Below, in pieces: positions 1 to 17,102 of a DNA stretch of 64,000 nucleotides. Positions within the stretch are counted from its first letter, which is position 1, and the number at the start of each line of letters is the position of its first letter. Source of the DNA: Terrimicrobiaceae bacterium (GTDB taxonomy: Bacteria; Verrucomicrobiota; Verrucomicrobiia; Chthoniobacterales; Terrimicrobiaceae). The notes under the pieces are model-generated. The model saw only the letters and a program-made list of their open reading frames with translations, was not told the origin of the DNA and did no database searches. Where the stretch lies: assembly GCA_018402345.1 (NCBI GenBank), contig JAGYIV010000008.1, forward strand, positions 124,001-188,000, written 5' to 3'. A program made the translations under genes and the position numbers.

Positions 1-585
1 CTGGAAGCCGAGCAGGTCTTTGCCATCGCCGGTCGGGCTTTTGGAAGGATTGCCATGGCAGGCCATGCAGCTTTTCGACATGATCACCGGGCGGGCGTAG
101 GCGATGACCCCGGCTTCGCGGTCAACAACAAAGACTTCCGGCTTGCCGTCTTTTTCCACGGCGTTCAGCAACTCGCGGTCGAGGTTGCTTTTGGGCGAAT
201 TCTCCTTGTTGCGTGGATTGTCGCGGACGATGCGGAACTCGGTGGAGGTTCCCTCGATGGATTTGCGGACGGCGGCCCAAGCGGCAACGACCGGAACGGT
301 TTTGTAGAAGGTGGTCTCGCGGTAGTTTTCCTTGCCCTTGTATTGGAGTTCGTTTGAAAGCTGCGCGTAGTTGAACGCTCCTGCTTCCGCAAGATCGCCG
401 ATCGAGTCGGTGGTGCTCTCCGCTTGGATGAGCGTGGCACGCATATTGGACTCAATGTCGTGATAGATGATGGTGGTAACCCTGTCGTAGATGACGTAAA
501 GGGACGCGCCGAGGGTCAGGATAATCCCAAGAGCGACAATCAGAAGGATGCGCCCACCAAGTGAGCTGAAAGGGTTTTTAAACAT
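1..585 (-). CDS. Methyl-accepting chemotaxis protein, N-terminal part (runs off the left edge), with periplasmic c-heme motif
   Basis: The first 195 codons are present; the gene continues beyond base 1. Residues about 7-30 form a membrane anchor (RILLIVALGIILTLGASL), followed by a periplasmic region. Near residue 180 is CMACHG, a covalent c-type heme attachment motif, in a context (MSKSCMACHGNPSKSPTGDG) typical of DUF3365/Tll0287-like sensor domains. In that family the domain senses redox or small ligands and is followed by HAMP and signalling domains. Those are outside the window, so the chemoreceptor call is inferred from the heme domain and from the CheX-type and response-regulator genes directly upstream on the same strand. 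A sensor histidine kinase or adenylate cyclase with the same input domain is possible. Confidence 0.65.
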   Translation of the reverse strand, partial: MFKNPFSSLGGRILLIVALGIILTLGASLYVIYDRVTTIIYHDIESNMRATLIQAESTTDSIGDLAEAGAFNYAQLSNELQYKGKENYRETTFYKTVPVVAAWAAVRKSIEGTSTEFRIVRDNPRNKENSPKSNLDRELLNAVEKDGKPEVFVVDREAGVIAYARPVIMSKSCMACHGNPSKSPTGDGKDLLGFQ

Positions 586-641
586 GGTGGAGAGTATTTA
601 AGGAGTTCGCCGCTTTTGGAGGAAGCGAAATGTGCCGGGGG

Positions 642-1883
642 TTAGAATGACGCGCTGGCTGCCGCGCGCGTCGGGTGGATATCGATGGTGTTTTTGCCCT
701 TGAAAGGATTCGGGAGGCTCTTGAGCGAGGCGATCTTGAGGTTCGTCTCGACGATGGTCGGGAGGTTCGGGAGGTTGTCCAGGTCACTGCCGACGATGCG
801 CCATTGGAGGCCGACATTTTCGCATTCCTGCACGATCGAAGTGACCGCGCGGATGATCGGGACTTTGACATCCGAGACGCCGGTGAGATCGATGATGAGC
901 TTGGAGTGCCCGGCATTCACGAAATCGGGGACCTTCGTGCGGGATTGGCGCGCAAGGTCGATCGAACCGACCTCGGAGAGATCAGGAGGAATCGTGACCA
1001 TTTGAACATCCCCTTCGGCGCTGTAAAACACTGGGGTGATATCGAGATCCATGGCGCGGGCGATACGATCGGCGATCTCCGAGGCGTCAAGCGGCTTGGT
1101 GAGCACGCCGGCGAAACCGACATCCTTGGCGTCGTTTTGCTCGAAGGTGGCAGTTTTGACGCACAGCCCGAGGAATGGAATGTTCTTCAGCGCGGGATGC
1201 GAGCGGGCGATGGCGAAAAACTTGAGCGCCGCCTTGTTCGGATAAGCAAGGCTGATCATGACAATGTCGGGCGTCTCCTCGGCGGGAACGTTGCCTGCCA
1301 CCTGTGCCTGCGCAGCCTCGGGACTCGGACAGGAGACGACCTTCCATCCGCGCTTGTCGATTGCCTTCTGGATCGACTCGATAATCGCGGGATGCTCGTC
1401 GACCACGAGCACTTTCAGGGCATCGGTGACCACTCGGGCTTTCTTGTTGGCTGTGGCAACGGGGGCGACCGGTGCCGCCGCGGGCGCTGCGGGAGCGGCT
1501 CCGGACTTCGGCTTGAGGTCGACGATGCGACTCACACGGTCGATCACCGCGGCCTCGGAGAAGGGCTTCACGATATAGTCGCGCACTCCCATCTTGGCGA
1601 TTTTCAGGACGTTCTCCTTGCCGGCCTCGGCGGTGAGCATGATGACGGGGATGTCCTTCAAGGCGGCGTCGGCCTTGAGCTTCGACAGGCACTCCACGCC
1701 GTCCATGACAGGCATGGTCACATCGAGAAGAATGACATCGGGTTTTTCCCTGGCCGCGACCTCGAGACCCTCGGCGCCGTTGCTGGCGAAGACCATCTGG
1801 ACATCATAGGAGCTGAATCCTTTATTAATAAGGGTGTGGATCATGCGACTGTCGTCCACACTGAGAATTTTTGGTGCGCTCAT
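642..1883 (-). CDS. Double-receiver response regulator with C-terminal STAS-like domain
   Basis: 413 residues. Residues 1-130 are a complete CheY-like receiver: acidic pair D10/D11, phospho-acceptor D54 (ILLDVTMPVMDG), T84 and K106 (VKPF). An Ala/Pro-rich linker (about 131-150) leads to a second receiver (about 155-280). In the second, the acceptor Asp is replaced by Ser (DIVMISLAYP) although the TKP lysine is kept, so it is probably a non-phosphorylatable pseudo-receiver. The last ~120 residues resemble a STAS/anti-sigma-antagonist fold (KLIIDLTGVSDVKVPIIRAV). It sits 15 bp downstream of the CheX-type gene on the same strand, suggesting a chemotaxis or motility signalling operon. The C-terminal assignment is the least certain part. 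Confidence 0.75.
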   Translation of the reverse strand: MSAPKILSVDDSRMIHTLINKGFSSYDVQMVFASNGAEGLEVAAREKPDVILLDVTMPVMDGVECLSKLKADAALKDIPVIMLTAEAGKENVLKIAKMGVRDYIVKPFSEAAVIDRVSRIVDLKPKSGAAPAAPAAAPVAPVATANKKARVVTDALKVLVVDEHPAIIESIQKAIDKRGWKVVSCPSPEAAQAQVAGNVPAEETPDIVMISLAYPNKAALKFFAIARSHPALKNIPFLGLCVKTATFEQNDAKDVGFAGVLTKPLDASEIADRIARAMDLDITPVFYSAEGDVQMVTIPPDLSEVGSIDLARQSRTKVPDFVNAGHSKLIIDLTGVSDVKVPIIRAVTSIVQECENVGLQWRIVGSDLDNLPNLPTIVETNLKIASLKSLPNPFKGKNTIDIHPTRAAASASF

Positions 1884-1898
1884 GGTATTTGCTGCTGG

Positions 1899-2384
1899 TT
1901 ATTGAAGAACTGCGAAGACGTGAAGGATAAGGGGGTCCGGGTGGCCTTCCACGGCGAACGAGTTGTTGACACTGATGGTGGCGGACTTTGCGGAAATGGT
2001 GATTTTATCGCCCCGGACCACGGTGGGGATGGTGAGCGAGCAGTTGTAGCCGCGATCGCAGAGCACGGATTTGAGGTTTCCGGTGAACATGTTTGTGAGT
2101 TCCGCAACCACGTCGTTCACATCCTGCTCGCCGGCAGCGCCTCCGAAGATTTTCTCCGTGACCATCTGGCCCAGTGAGGGGGAAAAGGCGGTGTAGACTA
2201 CTCCGTGGACCCGACCGCCGAGGCCGATCGAACCTGAGATCCCCGCGAGCACAGAGGGTTGCGGTGCATGGGCATTCCCTTTGCCGGGAACGGCACCCAA
2301 TCCGGCCATGGTCTGGAGGACTGTGGGAACAAAGTGGTTGATGATCTCGAGGAACATCGTGCTGTCTGGCGTGGGTTGGCTCAT
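1899..2384 (-). CDS. cheX: CheX-type chemotaxis phosphatase
   Basis: 161 residues, the usual length for CheX. It contains the E-x2-N signature of CheC/CheX/FliY phosphatases (E95 and N98 in VVAELTNMFTGNLKSVL), and the preceding GSIGLGGRVHGVVYTAF strand matches the family core. CheX dephosphorylates CheY-P in the cytoplasm and dimerises in characterised homologues. Its partner here is plausibly the receiver protein encoded 15 bp downstream. No CheA or CheW is visible in this window, so the rest of the pathway lies elsewhere. Confidence 0.75.
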   Translation of the reverse strand: MSQPTPDSTMFLEIINHFVPTVLQTMAGLGAVPGKGNAHAPQPSVLAGISGSIGLGGRVHGVVYTAFSPSLGQMVTEKIFGGAAGEQDVNDVVAELTNMFTGNLKSVLCDRGYNCSLTIPTVVRGDKITISAKSATISVNNSFAVEGHPDPLILHVFAVLQ

Positions 2385-2486
2385 CTGGATTTGTGGGTGA
2401 AGTGATAGACCGCAAGCGGACGTCGAAACGGATTGGGGTATAATCCAAAGCCCACCGAACGAGTCAACCCTGATTCCAGACGCCTG

Positions 2487-3128
2487 CTAATCGAGTTCCG
2501 CCGTGTCCACCTGGGCGACGGAGCCATTGAAAAACCACGCCATGCGCTTTCCGTGGACAGGCTCCGCAGGGGTATTGGCCGACCAAGGGGCGCCCGAGAC
2601 GCGGGGGTGCAACCGGTCGGCATCGGAAAATGCCCACGCCGATGGCGGCACCATGGCCAACCGAAGAGGGGAGGATGCCGCGGCGCCGGCGAGGGAGCCC
2701 CATGGATTCAATGTGGCGGCACCGTCCACGACCGCCATGTTCATGACAAAGGTGCGCGAGGTGGCAAGGGCGGCAGCCCCCATGGCCTTGCGGTAGGCCG
2801 GAGGCACAAAGAGGCCGATTGTTTCGGGTTGCGACGGCGTTTCGATCCCGAGATACGGCGCGAGTTCTCGGACCATGCGACCGCTGCGCGCGGGGTCGAG
2901 TTCGGGCAACTGGCCTGGCCAGAGCGGGCCCGGCAGGCTGCCGTTGTGATCGGCGGCATAAGCTGGAATCGCGCTGCCGATGGCGCGCATGTTGCCCATG
3001 GCCTTCGAGCGGTCTGCGGAGGCGCTTGCAATCCCGAAGCCCGCGAGAGCAAGCGCCGCGAGAATGCCGACAATCGCGAGCACGACCAACAACTCGACAA
3101 GAGTGAATGCGGCGCGGCGGCGTGTCAT
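2487..3128 (-). CDS. Type II secretion/type IV pilus-like pseudopilin
   Basis: 213 residues starting MTRRRAAFTLVELLVVLAIVGIL, a prepilin leader and hydrophobic N-methylation helix (the position before Phe is Ala rather than the usual Gly). The remainder has the GNMRAIGSAIPAYAADHNGSLPGP region typical of verrucomicrobial and planctomycetal 'prepilin-type N-terminal cleavage/methylation domain' proteins, which occur in dozens of paralogues per genome. The chosen start overlaps the stop of the dehydrogenase gene by 4 bp (ATGA). The longer upstream reading frame would put 31 residues before the leader and is rejected. Role beyond pseudopilin is unknown. Confidence 0.8.
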   Translation of the reverse strand: MTRRRAAFTLVELLVVLAIVGILAALALAGFGIASASADRSKAMGNMRAIGSAIPAYAADHNGSLPGPLWPGQLPELDPARSGRMVRELAPYLGIETPSQPETIGLFVPPAYRKAMGAAALATSRTFVMNMAVVDGAATLNPWGSLAGAAASSPLRLAMVPPSAWAFSDADRLHPRVSGAPWSANTPAEPVHGKRMAWFFNGSVAQVDTAELD

Positions 3129-4570
3129 TTCACTGCATCCGCCACGCCACCGGCAGGAACAAGCCGAATGATGCGGTCGGGCTGGTTCAGCACGACGTAA
3201 ATGAAGCCATCCGGCCCGCAACGCACATCGCGCACGCGTCCCACCGAACTGTCAAAAACCACCTCATCCTCGACCACCCTGCCCTCGCGCAAGCGCAGGC
3301 GGTGGAGCCCGCCCTTCAGACCGCCAACGAAGAAATCGCGGCTCCATGCGGGAAATTTGTCGCCGTTGTAAAACGCGAGCCCACAGGTCGCGATCGAGGG
3401 GGTCCAGTGGTGCAGCGGCGCATCGATGCCCTCCATTTCAGTCTTCGCCGTGAGAGGCGATCCGTCGTAATTCATGCCAAAACAGACGAGCGGCCAACCG
3501 AAATTCGCACCGTTTCGGATCAAGTTGAACTCATCCCCTCCGCGCGGCCCGTGCTCGGTGGCGTAGATCGCATGGGTTTGCGGATCGACCACGAGCCCCT
3601 GCGGGTTCCTGTGGCCGTAGCTCCAGATCGCCGGGTGGGCGTCGCTCCGGCCTGCAAACGGATTGTCGTCGGGGACACGACCGTCGGGGTGCAATCTGAG
3701 GATCTTGCCGATTGGGACCGAAAGATTCTGGGCTTTCGCGGCGTCTCCTCGGTCGCCGATCGAGAAATACAGGTATCCGCGGTCGAAAACGATACGCGAT
3801 CCGAAATGGACTCCGCGCGTGGTGTGGGTGTCGGGATCGCCCTCGAAGACGGTCTCGCCGTCCACCCAGGCATTGCCGCTCAATCGCCCGCGCGTGACTT
3901 TTGTCATGCTGGTTTTCGTGTCGGGAGAGTCTCCGGGCAGCGGTGCGGAATAGGTGAGATAAATCCAGCCGCTGGTATCAAAGTCCGGCGCTGGCACGAC
4001 ATCGAGCAACCCGCCCTGGCCGTTCGGAACAACCGATGGGGTTCCGGAAACCGGCTCTGGCAGTGGCTTCCAGGCTTCATCGAGAATCTTGAGGCGACCG
4101 CCGCGCTCGGTGACAAGCTTGCGGCCGTCCGGCAGGAAAGCGAGCGCCCAGGGAGTCTCCAATCCGCCGTCGAGCATGGTCTCAAGCAGATAGGATTCAT
4201 GGGTTGTTTTTACAGGAACAGTCGAGGCAGCGGCGGGAACGGGCCTCGCCGCGGGCCGATTTGAGGATTCCTTTTCGCGGATATAGACGACGAGCGAGCG
4301 AATGACCTCCGGCGATAGCGCGCGCTTGAAGCCAGGCATGCCCGCATCGGGAATCCCCTCGGCGATCGCCTGCGAAATGGCCTGGTCAGTGGATCCGTGG
4401 TTCCACAGCCCGTCAGCGAGGCTCCCCCCGGATCCTCCCTGCATGGCGGCGCCGTGACAGGAGGCACAATGCTCCCGGTAAACTTCCTCGACTTTCGTTT
4501 TCACGGCGTGGGCAGGCGCTGCAACAACGCAACAGGCGGCGACGAATGAAAAAAAACGAAGTGCTGGCAT
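3125..4570 (-). CDS. Cytochrome c-fused PQQ-dependent sugar dehydrogenase-type protein
   Basis: 481 residues. A signal peptide (about 1-22, ending AAPAHA) precedes a mono-heme cytochrome c domain with CASCHG (about residues 35-40) and a Met ligand candidate in DAGMPGF. Residues from about 120 form a glucose/sorbosone dehydrogenase (GSDH) six-bladed propeller with the usual landmarks: PWALAFLPDGRKLVTER, GQGGLLDVVPAPDF, SIGDRGD, SYGHRNPQGLVVDP, TEHGPRGGDEFN. The family oxidises aldoses in the periplasm; the fused cytochrome would take the electrons. The substrate cannot be read from sequence, and PQQ dependence is assumed from the family. It is followed by the pseudopilin gene with a 4-bp overlap. 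Confidence 0.85.
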   Translation of the reverse strand: MPALRFFSFVAACCVVAAPAHAVKTKVEEVYREHCASCHGAAMQGGSGGSLADGLWNHGSTDQAISQAIAEGIPDAGMPGFKRALSPEVIRSLVVYIREKESSNRPAARPVPAAASTVPVKTTHESYLLETMLDGGLETPWALAFLPDGRKLVTERGGRLKILDEAWKPLPEPVSGTPSVVPNGQGGLLDVVPAPDFDTSGWIYLTYSAPLPGDSPDTKTSMTKVTRGRLSGNAWVDGETVFEGDPDTHTTRGVHFGSRIVFDRGYLYFSIGDRGDAAKAQNLSVPIGKILRLHPDGRVPDDNPFAGRSDAHPAIWSYGHRNPQGLVVDPQTHAIYATEHGPRGGDEFNLIRNGANFGWPLVCFGMNYDGSPLTAKTEMEGIDAPLHHWTPSIATCGLAFYNGDKFPAWSRDFFVGGLKGGLHRLRLREGRVVEDEVVFDSSVGRVRDVRCGPDGFIYVVLNQPDRIIRLVPAGGVADAVK

Positions 4571-4688
4571 TGCCCCCTGTTACCAAGAACCGGCCCGCTC
4601 TGGCATGGGAAAACAGCCGCGCCGACGCAATTGCCTTCAACTCGATCGGCTCAAGCCGCGGACTTCCCCTGCGATTGTCACGCTTGGA

Positions 4689-5138
4689 TCACAAGCGATT
4701 CACCGTCCAGCGCACGGCGCCGCGCGCACCGATCTCAAGCCACGCCCAACTCGCAGGCGCTCCCTTGTTGGGTTTGCCGACCGTGCCTGGGTTGAGCACG
4801 CGGCACCCCTCCACCATTTCATCCCTCGGCACATGGGTATGTCCGTAAAGCATCACATCGCACGGCGGCAGCCTTCTTGGAGGGATGTGCACCAGATGAA
4901 ACCTCTTCCCGCCGCGCTCGAGATCCAGCGTTTCCGGCAGATCGAGGCCGCAATCGTTGTTGCCAAGCACCGCAAGAAACGGCCTGCCGATCGCGCGGCA
5001 CGCCGCAAGCGTGTCGAGATTGCAAAAATCACCCAAGTGCCAAATCTCATCCGCCTCGCGCAACAACGAGACCAACCCCTCAGGCAGGCGACCATGAGTG
5101 TCGGCGATGACAGCGATGCGGTGCGCCGCGGCTTTCAC
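4689..5138 (-). CDS. YfcE/MJ0936-family metallophosphoesterase
   Basis: 149 residues carrying the calcineurin-like metal-binding motifs: ADTHG (D12, H14), LGDF, GNND and GHTH, ending with the NPGTVGKPNKG segment typical of YfcE-type phosphodiesterases. These cleave phosphodiesters such as bis-pNPP and cyclic nucleotides in vitro; the physiological substrate is unknown. The start overlaps the stop of the upstream hypothetical gene by 4 bp, so the two are probably cotranscribed. Confidence 0.85.
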   Translation of the reverse strand: MKAAAHRIAVIADTHGRLPEGLVSLLREADEIWHLGDFCNLDTLAACRAIGRPFLAVLGNNDCGLDLPETLDLERGGKRFHLVHIPPRRLPPCDVMLYGHTHVPRDEMVEGCRVLNPGTVGKPNKGAPASWAWLEIGARGAVRWTVNRL

Positions 5139-5548
5139 ATCTCGCCGCGCAATGTTTCCAGCGCCATGCGCGCCGCCTCAGCCGGCGCCATGCCATCCAC
5201 ACTGCCGCTCTCGATCCACGCCTCGGTTTTCTTGAATGCCAACTCGACCGCCGGCGCCAACCGCTTCACCTTCGCGACCACAACCGCAGGTTGCACCGGG
5301 CTTCTCAAGGGCGCGGCGGGCTCGGGTTCGCCGTTCAACCAAGCCTCCAACAACGGCCCGATGTCGGCGGGATCCTGGAACTTCTGCCACACTGCATCCT
5401 CGCGACCGGGGTCAATGCTTGCCACAAACTCCTCGGCAAGCGCGAAGCTTGGAGCGTGTCCGTGAATGAATTCGCGGCACTGGTCGCTGTGCATTTTCAA
5501 GCGGCCTTTCGTGCCTGTGCTGTATTTGCGCCCTTCCATACCACTCAT
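5135..5548 (-). CDS. Hypothetical protein, coupled to metallophosphoesterase
   Basis: 137 residues, not recognised. No signal peptide or membrane segment. It has a Pro-rich centre (NGEPEPAAPLRSPVQP) and an amphipathic C-terminal half (KVKRLAPAVELAFKKTEAWIE). The 4-bp overlap with the downstream phosphoesterase and the good codon usage argue that it is real. The start could instead be Met4 or Met19. It is divergent from carB, with only 73 bp between the two starts, so that short gap must hold both promoters. Confidence 0.55.
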   Translation of the reverse strand: MSGMEGRKYSTGTKGRLKMHSDQCREFIHGHAPSFALAEEFVASIDPGREDAVWQKFQDPADIGPLLEAWLNGEPEPAAPLRSPVQPAVVVAKVKRLAPAVELAFKKTEAWIESGSVDGMAPAEAARMALETLRGEM

Positions 5549-5621
5549 CTCATCCGCCGCGCATTTTTAGTCCAACCATTTCGTTGCCCGGCGCGAGGCG
5601 GTTCGCATAGTCTCCCGCCCC

Positions 5622-8830
<3,209 letters not shown>

Positions 8831-8836
8831 CGCCCC

Positions 8837-8938
8837 CGGCGGTCATAGACCGCCGCTACAGACCCACCCGCCTAGGCGCGCCGACGTCCTCGTCGGCACC
8901 TGAATCAATCCTCCGAAGCGGAACCTGGAACAGGTTTA
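8837..8938 (+). repeat. Dispersed modular repeat, copy 1 (modules B+C)
   Basis: Module B is the palindrome GGCGGTCATAGACCGCCGC followed by TACAG. Module C follows: GCGCGCCGACGTCCTCGTCG, then a CCTCCGAAGCGGAACC stretch. The same ~100-bp arrangement recurs at 19600-19702 with only a few differences. The remainder of the 8831-9113 gap shows nothing else apart from the promoter-like sequence just before 9114. Confidence 0.8.
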
Positions 8939-9077
8939 GAGCAACGGCCCTGAGGTTGAGTCGGAATGCGGTCCAAATCACTCTGATTTCCACTACATGC
9001 GCGCCGCGCTGTTGCGCCCCGCCCGGCAAAGCCCATTTGACAATCGCACCCTTTTCATAAGGGCGAAAAACCATGCT

Positions 9078-9107
9078 TTGCATTTTTATCAACTATTTGC
9101 ATAGTAT
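9078..9107 (+). promoter_or_regulatory. Possible sigma-70-type promoter giving a leaderless transcript
   Basis: TTGCAT (9078-9083), 18 bp, then TAGTAT (9102-9107). The -10 ends seven bases before the ATG at 9114, and no Shine-Dalgarno sequence is visible, so transcription would begin at or next to the start codon. TTTGCAT occurs twice (9077-9083 and 9096-9102). Prediction from sequence only. Confidence 0.4.
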
Positions 9108-9113
9108 GGTTAC

Positions 9114-10244
9114 ATGATTGACCGCCCTTTCTGGACCCGCCGCATCGAATCCTCGTGGCGGGAGGCACCGATTGTTTGGCTCAGCGGGGTCCGTCGCTCC
9201 GGCAAAACCACCCTCGCGCAATCCCTCGGAGCGGGCGAATCCCTCTTCGTGAATTGCGATATCCCCGCCGTCGAGGGCATGGTGCGCGATCCCGTGCTGT
9301 TCTTCCAAAACTGCGGTTCCCGGATCGTGGTCTTCGATGAAATCCACCAACTCCGCGATCCCGCCAGACTCCTCAAAATCGGCGCGGACATGTTTCCAAA
9401 AATCAAAATCCTCGCCACCGGATCCTCGACGCTCGCCGCCGGGAAAAAATTCCGCGACACCCTTGCCGGTCGCAAGCGCACCATCCACCTCGTCCCCGTC
9501 ATGCTCGAGGAACTGCCCGATTTCGGAACCACACTCGAGCGCCGATTGTTTCACGGCGGGTTGCCCCAGGCGCTTTTGGCCGAATCCAAAAGCCCGGCAT
9601 TCTATCGCGAGTGGATGGACTCTTTTTTCGCACGCGACATCCAGCGCCTCTTTGGCTTTCGCGACATCAACCGCTTCACCGCGTTCCTCGAATATGTGTT
9701 GCGGCAAAGCGGAGGCCAGTTCGATGTCTCCAAAACCGCCTCGGAACTCGGCATCGCCCGGGCCACGGTGGAAAGCCACCTCCGCGCCCTCGAGACCACC
9801 CACGCCGCCACCTGCGTGCGCCCGTTCCACCGTGGCTCCAGCACGGAACTCGTCAAGCAACCCAAGGTCTATGGATTCGACACCGGCTTCGTGTCCTTCG
9901 TGCGGGGCTGGAATCCCCTCCGCTCGGAGGATCTTGGCGATCTCTGGGAGCATGTGGTTCTCGAAACGCTGCAAGCCCGCCTGCCCGAAACGCCCCCGCT
10001 CTACTGGCGGGACAAACGCGGACGCGAAATCGATTTCGTCATCCCCCGCAACCGCGACGCCGTCGATGCCATCGAGTGCAAATGGAATCCCGACGCGTTC
10101 GATGCCGACGCGCTGGCTGCATTCCGGGCCATCCACCCACGAGGCCGAAACTACCTCGTCAGCCCCGGCACCACGCACCCGCATGTGCGCTCTTCAAAAG
10201 GCTTCGAAATCGAAGTCGTCGATCCCGCAGGAATCCCTGTTTGA
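9114..10244 (+). CDS. AAA ATPase with C-terminal DUF4143-type nuclease-like domain
   Basis: 376 residues. Walker A is SGVRRSGKTT (about 24-33), Walker B is RIVVFDEIHQL (about 70-80), and a sensor-like ATGSS follows. A winged-helix segment (TASELGIARATVESHLRALE) lies near residues 212-232. The C-terminus has a PD-(D/E)XK-like pattern (WRDKRGREIDFVI...AIECKW), as in the DUF4143 family of bacterial and archaeal ATPases. Members are common, mobile and of unknown function. Flanked by dispersed repeats on both sides. Probably monocistronic. Confidence 0.8.
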   Translation: MIDRPFWTRRIESSWREAPIVWLSGVRRSGKTTLAQSLGAGESLFVNCDIPAVEGMVRDPVLFFQNCGSRIVVFDEIHQLRDPARLLKIGADMFPKIKILATGSSTLAAGKKFRDTLAGRKRTIHLVPVMLEELPDFGTTLERRLFHGGLPQALLAESKSPAFYREWMDSFFARDIQRLFGFRDINRFTAFLEYVLRQSGGQFDVSKTASELGIARATVESHLRALETTHAATCVRPFHRGSSTELVKQPKVYGFDTGFVSFVRGWNPLRSEDLGDLWEHVVLETLQARLPETPPLYWRDKRGREIDFVIPRNRDAVDAIECKWNPDAFDADALAAFRAIHPRGRNYLVSPGTTHPHVRSSKGFEIEVVDPAGIPV

Positions 10245-10366: not shown

Positions 10367-10460
10367 TGTCGCGGCGTCTCTATGAGCGCCGTTCTGCAGA
10401 CTCCCCCCCGACATTCTGCCGCCGTCCTGCCGGCGGTCATAGACCGCCGCGACAGGGGGA
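10367..10460 (+). repeat. Dispersed modular repeat, copy 2 (modules A+B)
   Basis: Module A (TGTCGCGGCGTCTCTATGAG then CGCCGTTC) is followed by module B (CGGCGGTCATAGACCGCCGC). The ATG inside module A opens a reading frame into the downstream ATPase, but that N-terminus would be encoded by a repeat. The 10245-10546 gap otherwise holds only an AT-rich, promoter-like stretch at about 10485-10530. Confidence 0.8.
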
Positions 10461-10546
10461 GGCGCGCTATCGCGCAGACACCAGAAAAATACATTTTATG
10501 GAACATTATTATTGATACTCATAATTATTGGGACAAATTTGCGGGC

Positions 10547-11848
10547 GTGAGGCTGGCTTTTACAAATCGGGTGCGGGAATTGGAGGCGCTGGATGCCTCG
10601 GCGCGAGTGGGCGGGTTGGTGGTGCTTTTTGGACGTCGGCGCGTGGGAAAGACGCGCCTGCTCACGCATTGGCTGGAAAACCGGAGCGGGTTTTATAGTC
10701 AGGCCATCGAAGCAGCCGTGCCGATGCAGATCGAGCAAACCGTGCGCGATATCGGCTCCGCCCTTCCGCAAGGCATCCAACCGAAGACTTGGATGGAGTT
10801 TTTTGAACTCCTGCGTTACGGACCGGCGGAAACCGTGCTGTGTCTGGATGAATTTCCCTATCTGGTGGCCTCGGACCCTTCGTTACCGAGTGTGGCGCAG
10901 CGTTGGCTCGACCATCACAGGCCGCAGGGATTCACGCTGGTGCTGTCGGGATCCAGCACGGGGGCGATGAACGATTGTTTCCTGAACCGCGCGGCGCCGC
11001 TTTACCAGAGGGCGCGCAAGCTCATTCACCTGGAGCCGATGGACTACGCCGCCTTCTGCGGAGCGTGTGGACTCGATCGCTCGTGCGAAGAATCCTTTAC
11101 CCGCTATGCGCTGGTTGGCGGCATTCCGAAATACTGGGAATTTATCGAAGCGGGCGCCACAGCGTTGGATCTGGCGGAGGAGCTCTTCTTCGGGCGTTCG
11201 GCGTTTCTGGAGGATGAGCCGGTGCGCATCCTGCGCGAGGAGCGGATCGCCGGCCTGGCTCCCCTCTCCGTGCTGGAGGCCGTGGGTCGCGGCGCATCAA
11301 AGACCTCGGAAATCGCCGCCCGGCTCGGAACCGCCCAAACAAACCTCGGGCGCACGCTGCAACAACTCCTCGACGCGTCCCTGCTCGAGCGCGAAATCCC
11401 TTATGGCGAAAGCCTGCGAACGACCAAGAAGACGCACTACCGCATCGGCGATCCGGCACTGCGTTTTTGGTTCCGGGTTTACTCCCCGCAAAGAAGCCTC
11501 TGGCACCGCCTCGCGATTGAGGAAAAAACCAAGCTCCTGCACGACCATGCGGCGACGGTTTTCGAAGACTACTGCAGGGCGCGGCATCCCGATGCGGCGC
11601 GCTATTGGGAGGCAAAAGCGGAATTTGATTTCGTGCGGCGGGAGGGTGACCGACTGATTGTATCCGAAGTGAAATTCAAAGCCCTCACAGCCTCGGATCG
11701 CGAAGGGTTGAAAAAAATGGTCATCGGCAAGTGGCAGGGTAGCCATCTCGGCCGAAAGCACCCTGATGCCGAAATCGAAATCCTCGACACCTCCGTGCTG
11801 GCCGCAGATTTGCCTGACCACGCAGAGGCTCTCGGAGAAGGATTTTAG
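10547..11848 (+). CDS. AAA ATPase of the archaeal-type/DUF234 family
   Basis: About 433 residues from the GTG at 10547. An ATG at 10382 is in frame but lies in a dispersed repeat, and an AT-rich promoter-like region (CATAAT at 10520-10525) separates the two, so the later start is preferred. Walker A is FGRRRVGKTRLL and Walker B is VLCLDEFPYLV. A winged helix follows (TSEIAARLGTAQTNLGRTLQ). The C-terminus has a restriction-endonuclease-like pattern (EAKAEFDFVRREGDRLIVSEVKFK). Members resemble archaeal plasmid-type ATPases; the role is unknown. It is unrelated in detail to the ATPase upstream but has the same domain plan. Confidence 0.78.
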   Translation: MRLAFTNRVRELEALDASARVGGLVVLFGRRRVGKTRLLTHWLENRSGFYSQAIEAAVPMQIEQTVRDIGSALPQGIQPKTWMEFFELLRYGPAETVLCLDEFPYLVASDPSLPSVAQRWLDHHRPQGFTLVLSGSSTGAMNDCFLNRAAPLYQRARKLIHLEPMDYAAFCGACGLDRSCEESFTRYALVGGIPKYWEFIEAGATALDLAEELFFGRSAFLEDEPVRILREERIAGLAPLSVLEAVGRGASKTSEIAARLGTAQTNLGRTLQQLLDASLLEREIPYGESLRTTKKTHYRIGDPALRFWFRVYSPQRSLWHRLAIEEKTKLLHDHAATVFEDYCRARHPDAARYWEAKAEFDFVRREGDRLIVSEVKFKALTASDREGLKKMVIGKWQGSHLGRKHPDAEIEILDTSVLAADLPDHAEALGEGF

Positions 11849-11928: not shown

Positions 11929-13590
11929 TCACTTTTTCTTCTTCTTACCACCGCTAGAGGATTTTTTGACAGACGACTTCTTCGAACCACCCCCAGACTT
12001 CTTCGCCGAGGACTTTTTGGAACCAGCGAATTTTTTAGCGGACGACTTTTTCGATCCGCCGCTGGACTTCTTCTTCGCCGAAGAAGATTTGCCTCCGCCT
12101 TTTTTGGATTTTTGCACCTGCGACGATCCCCCGCCACTTGGCGAACCTCCGCCACCTCCTCCGCCTCCGCCACCGTTGTTAACTCCGGACTTTGCGTCCG
12201 ATCCTTCGTCTGGGAATGCTTCAACAGATGGACCCCAAGCAATAACCGAACCATCATTTTTAATAGCATAAAAACCCTCCGAGCCTTCATGTATTGACAT
12301 TACGCCTGAGGCCAGCTTACTGGAAACCTCGCTTGAGACACCAAAAAGGCCACTGCTGCCCCAAGTTATTACTGAACCATCATCCTTAAGAGCAGCAAAT
12401 GCATCAGAATTTGCAAATATATTAACAACGCCTGAGGTGAGCTTATCAGACACATTGCTTGAATCTCCTCCATTCGCTTTATCACCCCATGTTATGACTG
12501 ATCCATTAACAGTCAGTGCGGCAAATCCTGGGGGAGCAGGCGTTTTCGTTATTTTAATTTTAGTAATGTTATTTAATTTACTTTTAATTTCTGTGTAATT
12601 TTCTGAAGGCACACTCTCACCCCACGCAACAATCGAACCGTCGTTTTTGCGAGCAAGAAACGAATGCTTATCCGCAATTATTTCAACAACTTCAGCGTTC
12701 AACTCGTTAGCAAGTAAACTTGAATTCGCACCTGCGCCAAGCCCCCATGTTACAACAGAACCATCTTCCTTCAAAGCAGCAAAAGCCCAGTAGGAACTCC
12801 ATAAAGACTTTACTCCAGAATTCAATAAGCCTTGCACATTACTAAATGGAACATCATCACGCAGCCCAGCGCCAGGCGTTTCGGACACCAATTGAACTGA
12901 GCCATCAGAGTTTAATTGATATGAACCAACTAATCGACTTGCAATCACTTCTGCACTATCGTAAAGACTTTTATTTCTAAAAACCCATGTTTTGCCAGAT
13001 TCATCTTCAGCATAGATTTTCCAATAAACTATTTCTTCGCCTTCTCTTCTATAGTTTTTATAATTATATGATTTAAGGACTTCCTCACGATCATCTCCAT
13101 AGATTTCTTTGATTTTAGGCATCTGTGCACTTTTTTGAGTATTCCAAAAGTTTACTTGATCTTGTTGACCCCAATATGAAATAGACCCATCCTCAAGAAG
13201 GACGAAAAAACAATTATGGAAGGCAACGAGTTGAGATACTTTGGAGGAAAAATTAACGTTTGAGACATCACCACCAAATTCAGGGTCACCCCACGCAACA
13301 ATCGATCCATCATTTTTTAATGCTACAAACGCACCAACATTACTAACAATATCAACAATCCCAGAGGAAAGAGATGACTTTGTATCAGAACTAATAAAAG
13401 AATCATCTCCCCATATAACAACGGAACCATTATCTTTCAGCGCAGAAAAACTTGTATCAGCATCATTTGAACAAATCTTCACAACCCCTGAAGACAATAG
13501 ATTGGAAACACTACTATATTCACTAAAACTAGCAAATGAAGAGTTTGATATTATTATTAAATAAATAAAATATGCGGTTATTTTTTTCAT
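11929..13590 (-). CDS. Secreted RCC1-repeat protein with Gly-rich linker and Ser/Lys histone-like tail
   Basis: 553 residues. A signal peptide (about 1-21: MKKITAYFIYLIIISNSSFA) precedes about eight degenerate RCC1-type blades of the form 'FxALKDDGSVITWG'. A run of 11 Gly (about 485) leads to a C-terminal tail of ~60 residues built from KKSSA, KKSGG and SKKSS units, ending in KKKKK. RCC1 blades form beta-propellers; secreted bacterial examples are of unknown function. The body of the gene is visibly AT-rich compared with its neighbours, suggesting separate ancestry. The start is 41 bp after the stop of the larger relative, so the two probably form an operon. Confidence 0.75.
   Translation of the reverse strand: MKKITAYFIYLIIISNSSFASFSEYSSVSNLLSSGVVKICSNDADTSFSALKDNGSVVIWGDDSFISSDTKSSLSSGIVDIVSNVGAFVALKNDGSIVAWGDPEFGGDVSNVNFSSKVSQLVAFHNCFFVLLEDGSISYWGQQDQVNFWNTQKSAQMPKIKEIYGDDREEVLKSYNYKNYRREGEEIVYWKIYAEDESGKTWVFRNKSLYDSAEVIASRLVGSYQLNSDGSVQLVSETPGAGLRDDVPFSNVQGLLNSGVKSLWSSYWAFAALKEDGSVVTWGLGAGANSSLLANELNAEVVEIIADKHSFLARKNDGSIVAWGESVPSENYTEIKSKLNNITKIKITKTPAPPGFAALTVNGSVITWGDKANGGDSSNVSDKLTSGVVNIFANSDAFAALKDDGSVITWGSSGLFGVSSEVSSKLASGVMSIHEGSEGFYAIKNDGSVIAWGPSVEAFPDEGSDAKSGVNNGGGGGGGGGGSPSGGGSSQVQKSKKGGGKSSSAKKKSSGGSKKSSAKKFAGSKKSSAKKSGGGSKKSSVKKSSSGGKKKKK
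11938..12110 (-). repeat. Coding tandem repeat for the Ser/Lys tail
   Basis: Imperfect ~30-60 bp units (plus-strand wording GACTTCTTCG, GCCGAGGACTTTTTGGA) encode SSAKK/SGGSKK units. Nearly the same units recur at 13635-13910, giving two homologous direct-repeat tracts 1.7 kb apart that could recombine and delete the 553-residue gene. Confidence 0.75.
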
Positions 13591-13631
13591 TGTTAAATTT
13601 TTTATTGTTTTACTCTATATTTAAATATCAT

Positions 13632-16600
13632 TTAGTTCTTCGTCTTCTTCCCGCCGGATTTTTTCTTTCCACCGCCAGAGGGTTTCTTGGCGGACGACTT
13701 CTTCGATCCGCCACTGGACTGCTTTGCCGAGGACTTTTTGGATCCGGAGGATTTTTTAGCAGACGACTTCTTCGATCCGCCACCAGACTTCTTCGCCGAG
13801 GACTTCTTGGATCCGGATGACTTGTTGGCACTCGATTTCTTAGATCCGCCGCTGGATTTCTTGGCCGAAGAGGATTTGCCTCCACCTTTTTTGGATTTCT
13901 TGACCTGTGGGGCACCAACACCGCCACCGCCGCTTGGCGCAGTTCCTCCAGCACCGCCACCTCCATTAAAAGTTGGAGATGATGGCACCACACCACCGGA
14001 TACCAGAGCCAAAGTATAACCAAAGCCCCCTGAGACTTGGTGATACTTGTAGGGGGTGACCGGAACGTCTGTCTGCCCGGAGCCATTACTACCCCAAGCA
14101 AGCACACCATCCTGACTTGTAATTGCAAGAGAGTGATAAAAACCTGTTCCAATCTGCTTGATATTTGCGCTTTCGGGGTTGTTTTTAAGTGACGCCGACC
14201 TGTTTTCACTTCCCCATGTGACGATCGTATTATTCATGGTAAGTCCCACGGCATGGGAAACTCCGACCGCGATCTCTTTAAGGTTCGGCACATTTTGGGG
14301 AATTGTCGCAGGATCGTTGACATTCAAATCCCAAAATCCCCAAGAGACTACTGATCCATCGTCCTTCAATGCCAGTGTGTTATTCGAGCAAGCAGCAATT
14401 TGGGACACTCCAGTCAGGTTTTCTGGAACGCTAGTTTTGTTCCCAAAGTCGGTGCCCCAAGCCACAACGGTGCCGTCATTTTTAAGTGCGACACAAAAGT
14501 TCGCTCCTGCGGCCACTTGAACGACATTTTTTAGATTCTCAGGGACATCTGTCTGACCCGATTCGTTCGCTCCCCATGCTGCCACAGTGCCATCCCCCCG
14601 GAGAGCAATTGATACGCTTGAACCTGCAGCGACTTGCACAACTTTTTCAAGCCCAAGCGGCACGGTTGCCTGCCCACGGTTGTTTTCTCCTTCCCCGCCT
14701 CCCCACGCGATCACTGATCCATCTTTTTTGAGGGCAAGACTGTGATCCCAACCGGCAGCTACTTGGATCACATCTTGCAGGCCGCTTGGTGTTGTGGAGG
14801 CACCGAATGGATTGTTTCCCCATGAGATAACACTGTATCCTTGCCTTAACGTATTAGGTGTTTGAGCCGCATCGACGAGCGAGGAACCGAAATAATGCTC
14901 CACCGCATCGGAAAACCCATCTCCATCGGTATCAACAAGCAATGGATTCGAGCCCAATGCACTTTCCTCACCATTCGTCAGCCCATCACCGTCTTCATCA
15001 GCATCCGGGTCGAGTGCCACCCTGACGACACGGGTAACAGGGCTCGCTTCCAGTCCGGATAAATCCTGAGCCGCATAGATTAGTTCGTAATCCCCAAGTT
15101 GGGCCGTATTCACAACTCCAGTTCCAACGATTGTCCTAAGCGCATCGTAATCATCAGTCACAACAGCGCCCGGATCTGTAAAAGGTGCACCTTTAAAAAT
15201 CAAAAGCGGGTTTTGCCCGATGATCGTGATCACTGGAGGGGTGTTTGTGAGTGTGGATGCTGCAATCCGGTTATTCCCCGAATCCGCCACAATCAATCGC
15301 CCCGAGGGAGGCACCGCGATATCCAGGGGGAGTCGGAAAAAGCCCTCTGGCGTGTGAGCAACGGTTGTCACTACCCCCGCAGGCGAGATTTTCCGAATTT
15401 TGCCCGAACCACTATCTACTACAAAGATGTTTCCCTGAGCATCGACCTCGACATCCGTGGGAAAACTGAACCGCGCTTGATCTCCTGTCCCATCCACACT
15501 TTCAGGCCAACCCAAGTCGCTGCTGCCCGAGAATGCCGCTGCAGATCCGGTAAAGCTATAAGGTGAATCTATTTCGACCTCTGTAAACGTTGTGAAATAA
15601 TCAGTAAAAATGCCAGAATAACTTTTAACACTAGAACCGTTTGTGATTTCATAAACGAAAGGCTTACCTTCTCTGGCTGCTGTATACTCTACTTCAGCTA
15701 CAATAGTATTTTCGATGTTAATGATCATATATTTAGTTGCATACTCTAGTGGATCATACGCAGTATTATCATAAATAATTTTATGACATTCCCCTGATGG
15801 GAGAGTTTTTAATACATTGAAAACTAATTGATCTGCTGCTTTCGCAACAAGTTCATTAATACAGGTTGAAATTTCTAAAGGCGTAGCTGTAGTGGTATCC
15901 GCTGACCCATTGAATCCATCCATGCTTCCGGTAAAGAAATCCCTTGCCTTACCAACCAGACCGGACCTCCCGCCTTCCCCTTTGCTGCCAGTAAATGCCG
16001 CCCCACCGCTCCCCTCAAATGCCGCCCCGCCGTTTGTGGTAAATAAAGCACCTGCGATCGTGGAGACAACTCCCTGCGAAGTGATCTTTCGAATGATTCC
16101 ATTTGTTGTATCTGCAACTATGATATTTCCTTCCGCATCGATTGCGATGCCTTGCGGAGAATTGAACTTCGCTTCTGAAGCACCCGCATTCACGCTTCCC
16201 GATTGGCCCAAGATCCCAGCCAGCGTCGTGACATTACCACTCGAGTCGATTTTGCGAATCGCATGATTTCCGGAATCGGCTACGTAGATATTTCCCGTAG
16301 CATCCACCACAACATCGGAGGGGAAATTAAACCGCCCACCACCACCATCCGCGCTGCCTACAAGCGCCGGTCCATCAGAACTTCCGATCAACCCACCGGT
16401 TCCACTGCCAGTGAAGCTACCCGCAATCGTGCTCACAACACCCTCGGGCGTCACCTTGCGGATCGCGTGGTTTTTACGGTCCGCGACAAGGATATTACCC
16501 TCCCGATCAAGAGATAATCCTTGTGGGTTTTTGAAACGCGCAGCGTTTCCGGCTCCATCTGAACTTCCCGAAAAAATCCCGTCGCTGCTACCAAGGAAAT

Positions 16601-17102
16601 TGCCATCGGCACTTCCAACAAAATTGCCCGCCAGTTTCGTTACTGAGCCATCGGGCGCGATTTTACGGATCGCATTGTTGCTCGTGTCACTCACATAAAC
16701 AGTCCCATCCTCCGCAACAGCGACTCCCCCCGGTCGATAAAACATCGCTTCACCACCGATCCCATCCTTGTTGCCGATCCAACCTCCACCTGCGCCGCTT
16801 CCCGAAAATCCTTCCGAACTCCCACCAAACCCCTCGCCACTTCCACTAAATCCAGCATCACTCCCGCTGAAAAATCCATCTCCGCTTCCGGAATACCCAT
16901 CACTGCTTCCAGAGAATGATTCAACCAACCACCCAGCAAGATTTTTGAAGACATACCCCCCGCCATTTGCTGTTTCAGGGATAACTTGCGCTGGCACCCA
17001 TGCGATTGTTCCAGCAAAAATAAACATGCTCGCCAAAAGCCGCCTCGGCATCACCGCACTTATTAAATTTGCCGGGGAGTAAGTAGAATGATGGTTTTTC
17101 AT
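13632..17102 (-). CDS. Large secreted NHL/RCC1 double-propeller protein with Ser/Lys histone-like tail
   Basis: 1156 residues. Signal peptide near 18-40 (Met18, at 17051, is an equally good start). A Gly/Ser/Asp repeat (FSGSSDG-type, about 62-105 with later islands) precedes NHL blades (GVAVAEDGTVYVSDTSNNAIRKI and similar, about 110-350 and 540-610). An Ig-like DUF5011-type domain (about 630-700) is followed by a calcium-binding type-3 segment (DPDADEDGDGL, DTDGDGFSD), then about seven RCC1 blades (VISWGNN..., SLALKKDGSVIAWG), a Gly-rich linker and a ~85-residue SSAKK/SGGSKK tail. Extracellular or cell-surface location is inferred. Function unknown; carbohydrate binding or adhesion is a guess. 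Residues about 400-515 come from an AT-rich insert. Confidence 0.8.
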   Translation of the reverse strand: MKNHHSTYSPANLISAVMPRRLLASMFIFAGTIAWVPAQVIPETANGGGYVFKNLAGWLVESFSGSSDGYSGSGDGFFSGSDAGFSGSGEGFGGSSEGFSGSGAGGGWIGNKDGIGGEAMFYRPGGVAVAEDGTVYVSDTSNNAIRKIAPDGSVTKLAGNFVGSADGNFLGSSDGIFSGSSDGAGNAARFKNPQGLSLDREGNILVADRKNHAIRKVTPEGVVSTIAGSFTGSGTGGLIGSSDGPALVGSADGGGGRFNFPSDVVVDATGNIYVADSGNHAIRKIDSSGNVTTLAGILGQSGSVNAGASEAKFNSPQGIAIDAEGNIIVADTTNGIIRKITSQGVVSTIAGALFTTNGGAAFEGSGGAAFTGSKGEGGRSGLVGKARDFFTGSMDGFNGSADTTTATPLEISTCINELVAKAADQLVFNVLKTLPSGECHKIIYDNTAYDPLEYATKYMIINIENTIVAEVEYTAAREGKPFVYEITNGSSVKSYSGIFTDYFTTFTEVEIDSPYSFTGSAAAFSGSSDLGWPESVDGTGDQARFSFPTDVEVDAQGNIFVVDSGSGKIRKISPAGVVTTVAHTPEGFFRLPLDIAVPPSGRLIVADSGNNRIAASTLTNTPPVITIIGQNPLLIFKGAPFTDPGAVVTDDYDALRTIVGTGVVNTAQLGDYELIYAAQDLSGLEASPVTRVVRVALDPDADEDGDGLTNGEESALGSNPLLVDTDGDGFSDAVEHYFGSSLVDAAQTPNTLRQGYSVISWGNNPFGASTTPSGLQDVIQVAAGWDHSLALKKDGSVIAWGGGEGENNRGQATVPLGLEKVVQVAAGSSVSIALRGDGTVAAWGANESGQTDVPENLKNVVQVAAGANFCVALKNDGTVVAWGTDFGNKTSVPENLTGVSQIAACSNNTLALKDDGSVVSWGFWDLNVNDPATIPQNVPNLKEIAVGVSHAVGLTMNNTIVTWGSENRSASLKNNPESANIKQIGTGFYHSLAITSQDGVLAWGSNGSGQTDVPVTPYKYHQVSGGFGYTLALVSGGVVPSSPTFNGGGGAGGTAPSGGGGVGAPQVKKSKKGGGKSSSAKKSSGGSKKSSANKSSGSKKSSAKKSGGGSKKSSAKKSSGSKKSSAKQSSGGSKKSSAKKPSGGGKKKSGGKKTKN
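13635..13910 (-). repeat. Coding tandem repeat for the Ser/Lys tail of the large protein
   Basis: Longer version of the tract at 11938-12110, with alternating units encoding SKKSSAKK and SGGSKKSSAKK. Units differ mainly at third positions and by Gly/Ser swaps, consistent with unit gain and loss. Confidence 0.75.
16788..16920 (-). repeat. Coding repeat for FSGSSDG-type motifs
   Basis: Six or more copies of a roughly 21-bp unit encode (F)SGSSDG, SGSGDG, SGSDAG, SGSGEG, GGSSEG and SGSGAG. Isolated copies follow at about 16550-16620 (FVGSADG, FLGSSDG, FSGSSDG), about 16350-16420, about 15920-16010 and about 15530. They fall in loops between NHL blades. Confidence 0.7.

Follow-up and report, generated by a model that had tools for sequence, protein, structure and literature searches.

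A lysine- and serine-rich C-terminal tail on unrelated exported-type proteins of a Terrimicrobiaceae bacterium and a sister species

Described C-terminal anchors and basic tails

Known bacterial C-terminal anchors mostly depend on one of two devices: a membrane helix that a sortase-like enzyme cuts, or a folded secretion domain. PEP-CTERM, which in the genus studied here is found on choice-of-anchor-I relatives, is a short C-terminal module with a basic end that occurs on unrelated exported proteins and is more alike within than between genomes. The Lys/Ser tail described below resembles it in these respects; however, the tail is much longer and repetitive, and has neither a PEP motif nor a transmembrane helix.

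A repetitive Lys-rich tail at the C-terminus of a surface protein is also known from HBHA of Mycobacterium, in which the Lys-rich repeats alone bind sulfated polysaccharide and confer full heparin affinity when grafted on MalE (PMC3293801). The HBHA tail is rich in Ala, Pro and Lys (KKAAPA/KKAAAKK) and belongs to a coiled-coil protein, whereas the present tail consists of Ser, Gly and Lys and is spread over several unrelated proteins with signal peptides. Given this precedent, the claim of the preliminary description that no such system had been described is too strong. In S. aureus biofilms, according to the electrostatic-net model, basic exported proteins bind extracellular DNA (PMC6593408). 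Linker histone H1 tails and chlamydial Hc1-Hc2-like proteins are similar as Lys/Ser/Ala-rich basic low-complexity sequences, but those are cytoplasmic or nuclear, while the Lys/Ser tails belong to proteins that have signal peptides and exported domains. The gene B product described below matches, in its RCC1 part, the secreted bacterial propeller BLIP-II (E ~1e-33), the chains of which (273-287 aa) are propeller only, with no NHL repeats, Ig-like part or Lys/Ser tail. The tail probably belongs, as a variant, with the known modular C-terminal anchors and polycationic adhesive tails.

The diatom silaffin Sil1p is built in a similar way: it has a signal peptide, and its C-terminal part is repetitive and contains lysine clusters (PMC4557024). 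Sil1p, however, is a eukaryotic precursor that is processed and modified, and the likeness is one of architecture, with no sequence homology claimed. A silaffin-like template, in which the Ser/Lys repeats would be phosphorylated on Ser and condense silica or phosphate on the bacterial surface, seems very improbable: the partners of the tail (propeller, protease, Ig-like) do not point to mineral templating, and to our knowledge no silica biology is described for this bacterial group.

Two adjacent propeller genes and their tails

The window, i.e. the whole stretch of 64,000 nucleotides analysed, contains two adjacent genes with the following features.

11929..13590, minus strand: gene A, exported 553-aa RCC1-repeat protein with a C-terminal Lys/Ser tail
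13528..13590 (end approximate), minus strand: gene A signal peptide MKKITAYFIYLIIISNSSFAS (sequence; hydropathy and heuristic)
12226..13485 (extent approximate), minus strand: gene A RCC1-type repeats, degenerate in the middle part (PF13540/PF25390; blade-like strands in a low-confidence model)
12121..12180, minus strand: gene A Gly-rich linker NNGGGGGGGGGGSPSGGGSS
11932..12120, minus strand: gene A Lys/Ser tail QVQKSKKGGGKSSSAKK...KKKKK, 63 aa
13632..17102, minus strand: gene B, exported 1156-aa NHL / Ig-like / TSP3 / RCC1 protein with a C-terminal Lys/Ser tail
16986..17051, minus strand: gene B signal peptide MPRRLLASMFIFAGTIAWVPAQ, from Met18, the likely start (sequence)
15261..16751, minus strand: gene B NHL propeller repeats, broken up by GSxDGF repeats (PF01436)
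15018..15230, minus strand: gene B bacterial surface Ig-like domain (PF16403)
14940..14999, minus strand: gene B TSP3-like repeat (PF18884)
13998..14801, minus strand: gene B RCC1 propeller, ~7 repeats counted by eye (PF13540; BLIP-II relatives)
13908..13970, minus strand: gene B Gly-rich linker FNGGGGAGGTAPSGGGGVGAP
13635..13907, minus strand: gene B Lys/Ser tail, QVKKSKKGGGKSSSAKK followed by SSGGSKKSSAKK-type repeats, ending KKTKN, 91 aa

Both open reading frames are present at these coordinates, and the earlier account of two adjacent exported propeller genes with a Gly linker and a Lys/Ser tail is confirmed in its reading frames, domains, signal-peptide-like N-termini (for gene A, MKKITAYFIYLIIISNSSFASF) and tails. 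The Ig-like domain (Bact_surface_Ig-like, E 1e-11) and TSP3_bac (E 4e-10) of gene B extend its list of domains. According to profile scores, gene A (RCC1_2, E 9e-18, 64.0 bits) and gene B (E 1.4e-41, 139.6 bits) both encode RCC1 repeat proteins, the cut-off being 22 bits. Gene B is also an NHL repeat protein (E 1.5e-43, 145 bits against a cut-off of 20), and the solved sequences nearest to this part are teneurin-like and TRIM71 NHL; gene A has no NHL repeats. A PF00415 search of the own genome gave no match anywhere, controls included, and is hence uninformative.

Tail and Gly linker together comprise 83 aa in gene A and 112 aa in gene B, with a net charge of +24 over the last 85 and +31 over the last 114 residues, respectively. 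In gene B the tail passes from its opening block into SKKSSAKK repeats, and its DNA consists of imperfect tandem repeats (36/69 bases). Structure predictions made without an alignment are of low confidence (mean pLDDT 49 for A and 44 for the RCC1 half of B) and leave the tails unstructured.

As for known sorting signals, the preliminary description considered that identity with one of them would speak against polymer binding, and neither the PEP-CTERM nor the LPXTG type fits. In genes A and B there is no PEP motif, and the maximal hydropathy of the last 40 residues is −0.93 and −1.20, respectively; across the Lys/Ser tails the same region contains no hydrophobic segment (maximum at most −0.69, compared with +1.66 in a PEP-CTERM relative). 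PEP-CTERM identity is therefore rejected, as is a sortase substrate, the tail having neither an LPXTG-like motif nor a helix. As for a Type IX secretion C-terminal domain, NCBIfam reports no sorting-domain match for A or B. Exosortase PF09721 occurs twice in the own genome and in 14 of the 16 genus genomes, so the lineage has a PEP-CTERM system in addition, which is uninformative on the Lys/Ser tails. A histone H1-like cytoplasmic DNA-binding protein is rejected too, since the carriers have signal peptides and exported-type domains, with no histone family match for A or B.

The body of gene A (window 12181-13590) is strongly AT-rich, with GC of 0.39 overall and 0.27 at the third position against 58-60% GC for the genome, which suggests a recent acquisition of this gene. 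Two adjoining ATPase genes on the plus strand (AAA_14/DUF4143 at window 9114-10244; ATPase_2/DUF234-like at 10382-11848) have no evident link to the propeller genes.

Distribution and history of the tail

Homologues of the tail (PSGGG..QVQKSKKGGGKSSSAKK..KKKKK) terminate at least four further exported-type proteins with unrelated domains, encoded at three other places in the own genome, a count that comes from searches and a limited sample of genome stretches and is a lower bound. These proteins and a carrier from a sister species, all ending in a Lys/Ser tail, are as follows.

C (C3:85.1k, own genome): NHL protein
D (C2:88.2k, own genome): MBG/Big_2-like protein
E (C2:86.5k, own genome): 537-aa exported protein with no Pfam match
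F (G008:C23, sister species): S8 subtilase
G (C2:79.5k, own genome): 281-aa exported protein

By a crude rule, all 7 tail-bearing genes have a signal-peptide-like N-terminus, while the background rate of this rule is 23/212 ORFs (11%) in a sample of ~355 kb from the own genome. In C and D, however, signal peptide and tail lie in different frames, with breaks in or near repeats. Errors of assembly or gene damage may account for these breaks, which weaken the signal-peptide evidence for the two genes. A wrong-frame artefact is rejected, as tail and signal peptide share one frame in A, B, E, F and G. At G000:C3 ~8800-9200, G000:C2:846500-854500 and L026 ~6944, exported genes have frame breaks within or close to linkers made of tandem repeats (GASSGGD, PEPQPEP), for which assembly errors, damage and phase variation are all possible causes.

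None of the 212 background ORFs (at least 200 aa, ~355 kb sampled from other genome parts) carries the tail, so it is not a chance occurrence. A profile search of 147 genomes of the order finds real tails in the own genome and in the sister species G008 only; weaker matches were dropped on reading as out-of-frame, cytoplasmic or chance. Scanning the GTDB contig collection, from which own-genome records are possibly absent, for QVxxxKKxGxKSS gives a sole match, in G008 contig VFJO01000191 (labelled Verrucomicrobia bacterium Bin_73_16). The motif KKSSAKK likewise identifies true tails in the own genome and chance or cytoplasmic matches elsewhere. The KKK-stop pattern, which is blind to tails with other ends, reveals no further exported Lys/Ser carrier in the own genome, the other sites being ordinary proteins and short or chance frames. 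BLAST-like tail queries missed members. The phylogenetic range of the tail is thus narrow, and its presence in two species only gives no phylogenetic depth.

Judged by sequence, the tail is a module, homologous across unrelated exported proteins. In the NHL and RCC1 relatives of the sister species it is missing, and their C-termini are of other kinds, e.g. FFRLQAR and FFRLISP; its absence there together with its presence on unrelated proteins indicates swapping, and a propeller-specific tail is rejected. The preliminary description had taken the tail for a possible anchor of the propellers at the surface or in a matrix, an idea to be abandoned if homologues systematically lacked it. The exported polycationic tail is real and anchoring is still its best explanation, but the restriction to propellers does not hold; the lack in homologues is true of the sister-species propellers and does not refute the idea. 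The observation itself is real, unusual and wider than first seen.

Tails range from ~57 to 114 aa including the linker, with a different number of repeats among carriers. Several share a conserved start, QVQKSKKGG, and the end KKKKK, which, along with the C-terminal position, the modular spread over unrelated exported proteins and a within-genome similarity as in PEP-CTERM (Haft and co-workers, PMC1569441), could indicate a true sorting signal, i.e. one recognized by a dedicated secretion or processing machine and cut or coupled by an enzyme, instead of a polymer anchor. We consider this unlikely, given the variable length and repeat number, the lack of a hydrophobic helix, tails E and G without the QVQ start, and no shared neighbouring gene noticed across the tail loci.

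Four tails contain the QV block, and their DNA is 78-86% identical over it, across genes and species. When only codons for K, S, G and A are compared, gene A has a third-position GC of 0.55 in the tail against 0.30 in the body (p=0.0004); B (p=0.018) as well as E (p=0.02) show a weaker difference, and none is found in D, G or F. All pairwise comparisons of 14 SKKSSAKK-like octamers give 343 synonymous and 107 nonsynonymous codon differences, while random single changes would be 22% synonymous; these values are a description and not a formal test, since pairs are non-independent and the octamers were chosen by peptide pattern, which favours synonymous differences. The codon pattern is compatible with constraint on the protein, and together with the unlike codon composition of tail and body in gene A it points to a copied tail kept at the protein level.

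It is quite unlikely, in our view, that the tail is a low-complexity sequence of little function that was copied from a gene for a cytoplasmic histone-like protein and expanded almost neutrally. Slippage-prone repeats are able to spread under weak selection, the tail is present in two species only, and two basic frames exist elsewhere in the genome, a short Lys/Ser ORF that stands alone and an H1-like one with KPAAKK. However, changes between repeats are mostly synonymous, the tail always stands at the C-terminus of exported-type proteins, and independent loci retain the basic end, most of them also the linker and the start block.

Possible retention function and a second basic module

The reading we lean towards, as on balance probable, is a lineage-specific polycationic C-terminal retention tail that holds secreted proteins on anionic polymers (extracellular DNA, exopolysaccharide, LPS). 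Carriers would be made with cleavable signal peptides, and the Gly-rich linker would display the disordered Lys/Ser tail, whose charge is about +16 to +31. Outside the cytoplasm the tail would stick electrostatically to extracellular DNA, acidic exopolysaccharide or LPS, so that propellers and further exoproteins would stay close to the cell or within its matrix. Charge and the absence of structure or helix suggest electrostatic binding, for which the HBHA tail and the electrostatic net of S. aureus biofilms are precedents; since polycationic tails bind many things, no specific ligand is predicted. Apart from the tail itself, the sequences show that it is homologous across unrelated exported proteins, varies mostly synonymously between repeats, is missing from related propellers and contains no membrane helix; from this we infer a retention function and an anionic ligand. 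If this is correct, a purely polycationic tail that can be swapped among a protease, propellers and Ig-like proteins would offer a second, simple means of keeping exoproteins in the matrix.

In the same lineage, a related exoenzyme family trades PEP-CTERM for another basic C-terminus. This second module, traced from a choice-of-anchor-I protein ending GGSKKSTAKK, is a domain of ~70 aa whose core resembles a helix-turn-helix and whose end is short and basic; in the genus it is present on exoenzymes. The carriers are choice-of-anchor-I proteins in the own genome (two, one with frame breaks) and in G011, three neighbouring exported proteins in G014 (one TIGR02597-like) and a GH8-like protein in G008; one carrier is a PhoD + 5'-nucleotidase + choice-of-anchor-I gene. 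Among 388 genomes drawn from the phylum, strong matches occur in the own genome only, and a genus-wide search gave the remaining carriers. The following loci were delimited.

G014:C46, 536-5876, minus strand: second-module locus
G008:C263, 1371-3179: second-module locus
G000:C2:744000-752500, 303-6583: second-module locus

In G006, G008 and G012, by contrast, the choice-of-anchor-I relatives have PEP-CTERM as their C-terminus, and two tandem paralogues in G014 differ by the presence of the second module. That it stands where these relatives carry PEP-CTERM suggests that basic C-termini serve as anchors; the swap is seen only for the second module, and is extended to the Lys/Ser tail by analogy. 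On the simplest reading, exoproteins of this genus are retained by means of basic C-terminal modules. In a broader proposal, which we hold to be fairly unlikely, the Lys/Ser tail and the HTH-like + poly-Lys module, both polycationic and helix-free, would be interchangeable substitutes for PEP-CTERM; secreted enzymes and propellers would be bound by them, without a covalent link, to a polyanion such as extracellular DNA, which would amount to a new kind of surface-anchoring system.

Matches to HTH families are found in all 7 copies of the second module (MarR_2 7/7, HTH_20 6/7), all of them weak and none above curated cut-offs. They raise a narrower variant of retention, a rather doubtful one, in which both modules would be specific for nucleic acids and hold phosphatase/5'-nucleotidase, protease, glucanase and propellers on an extracellular DNA matrix. 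The PhoD/5'-nucleotidase and GH8 carriers agree with it, as do the DNA-binding exported proteins of S. aureus (PMC6593408); the Lys/Ser tail, however, has no HTH.

As for basic frames elsewhere in the genome, an H1/Hc2-like KPAAKK-rich frame at G000:C2:888112, interrupted by frame breaks, seems to be an ordinary gene for a histone-like protein of the cytoplasm. On the minus strand of G000:C2:68000-82000, 9573 to ~9750, lies a possible standalone Lys/Ser-rich protein of ~59 aa, which has no signal peptide and is tail-like throughout.
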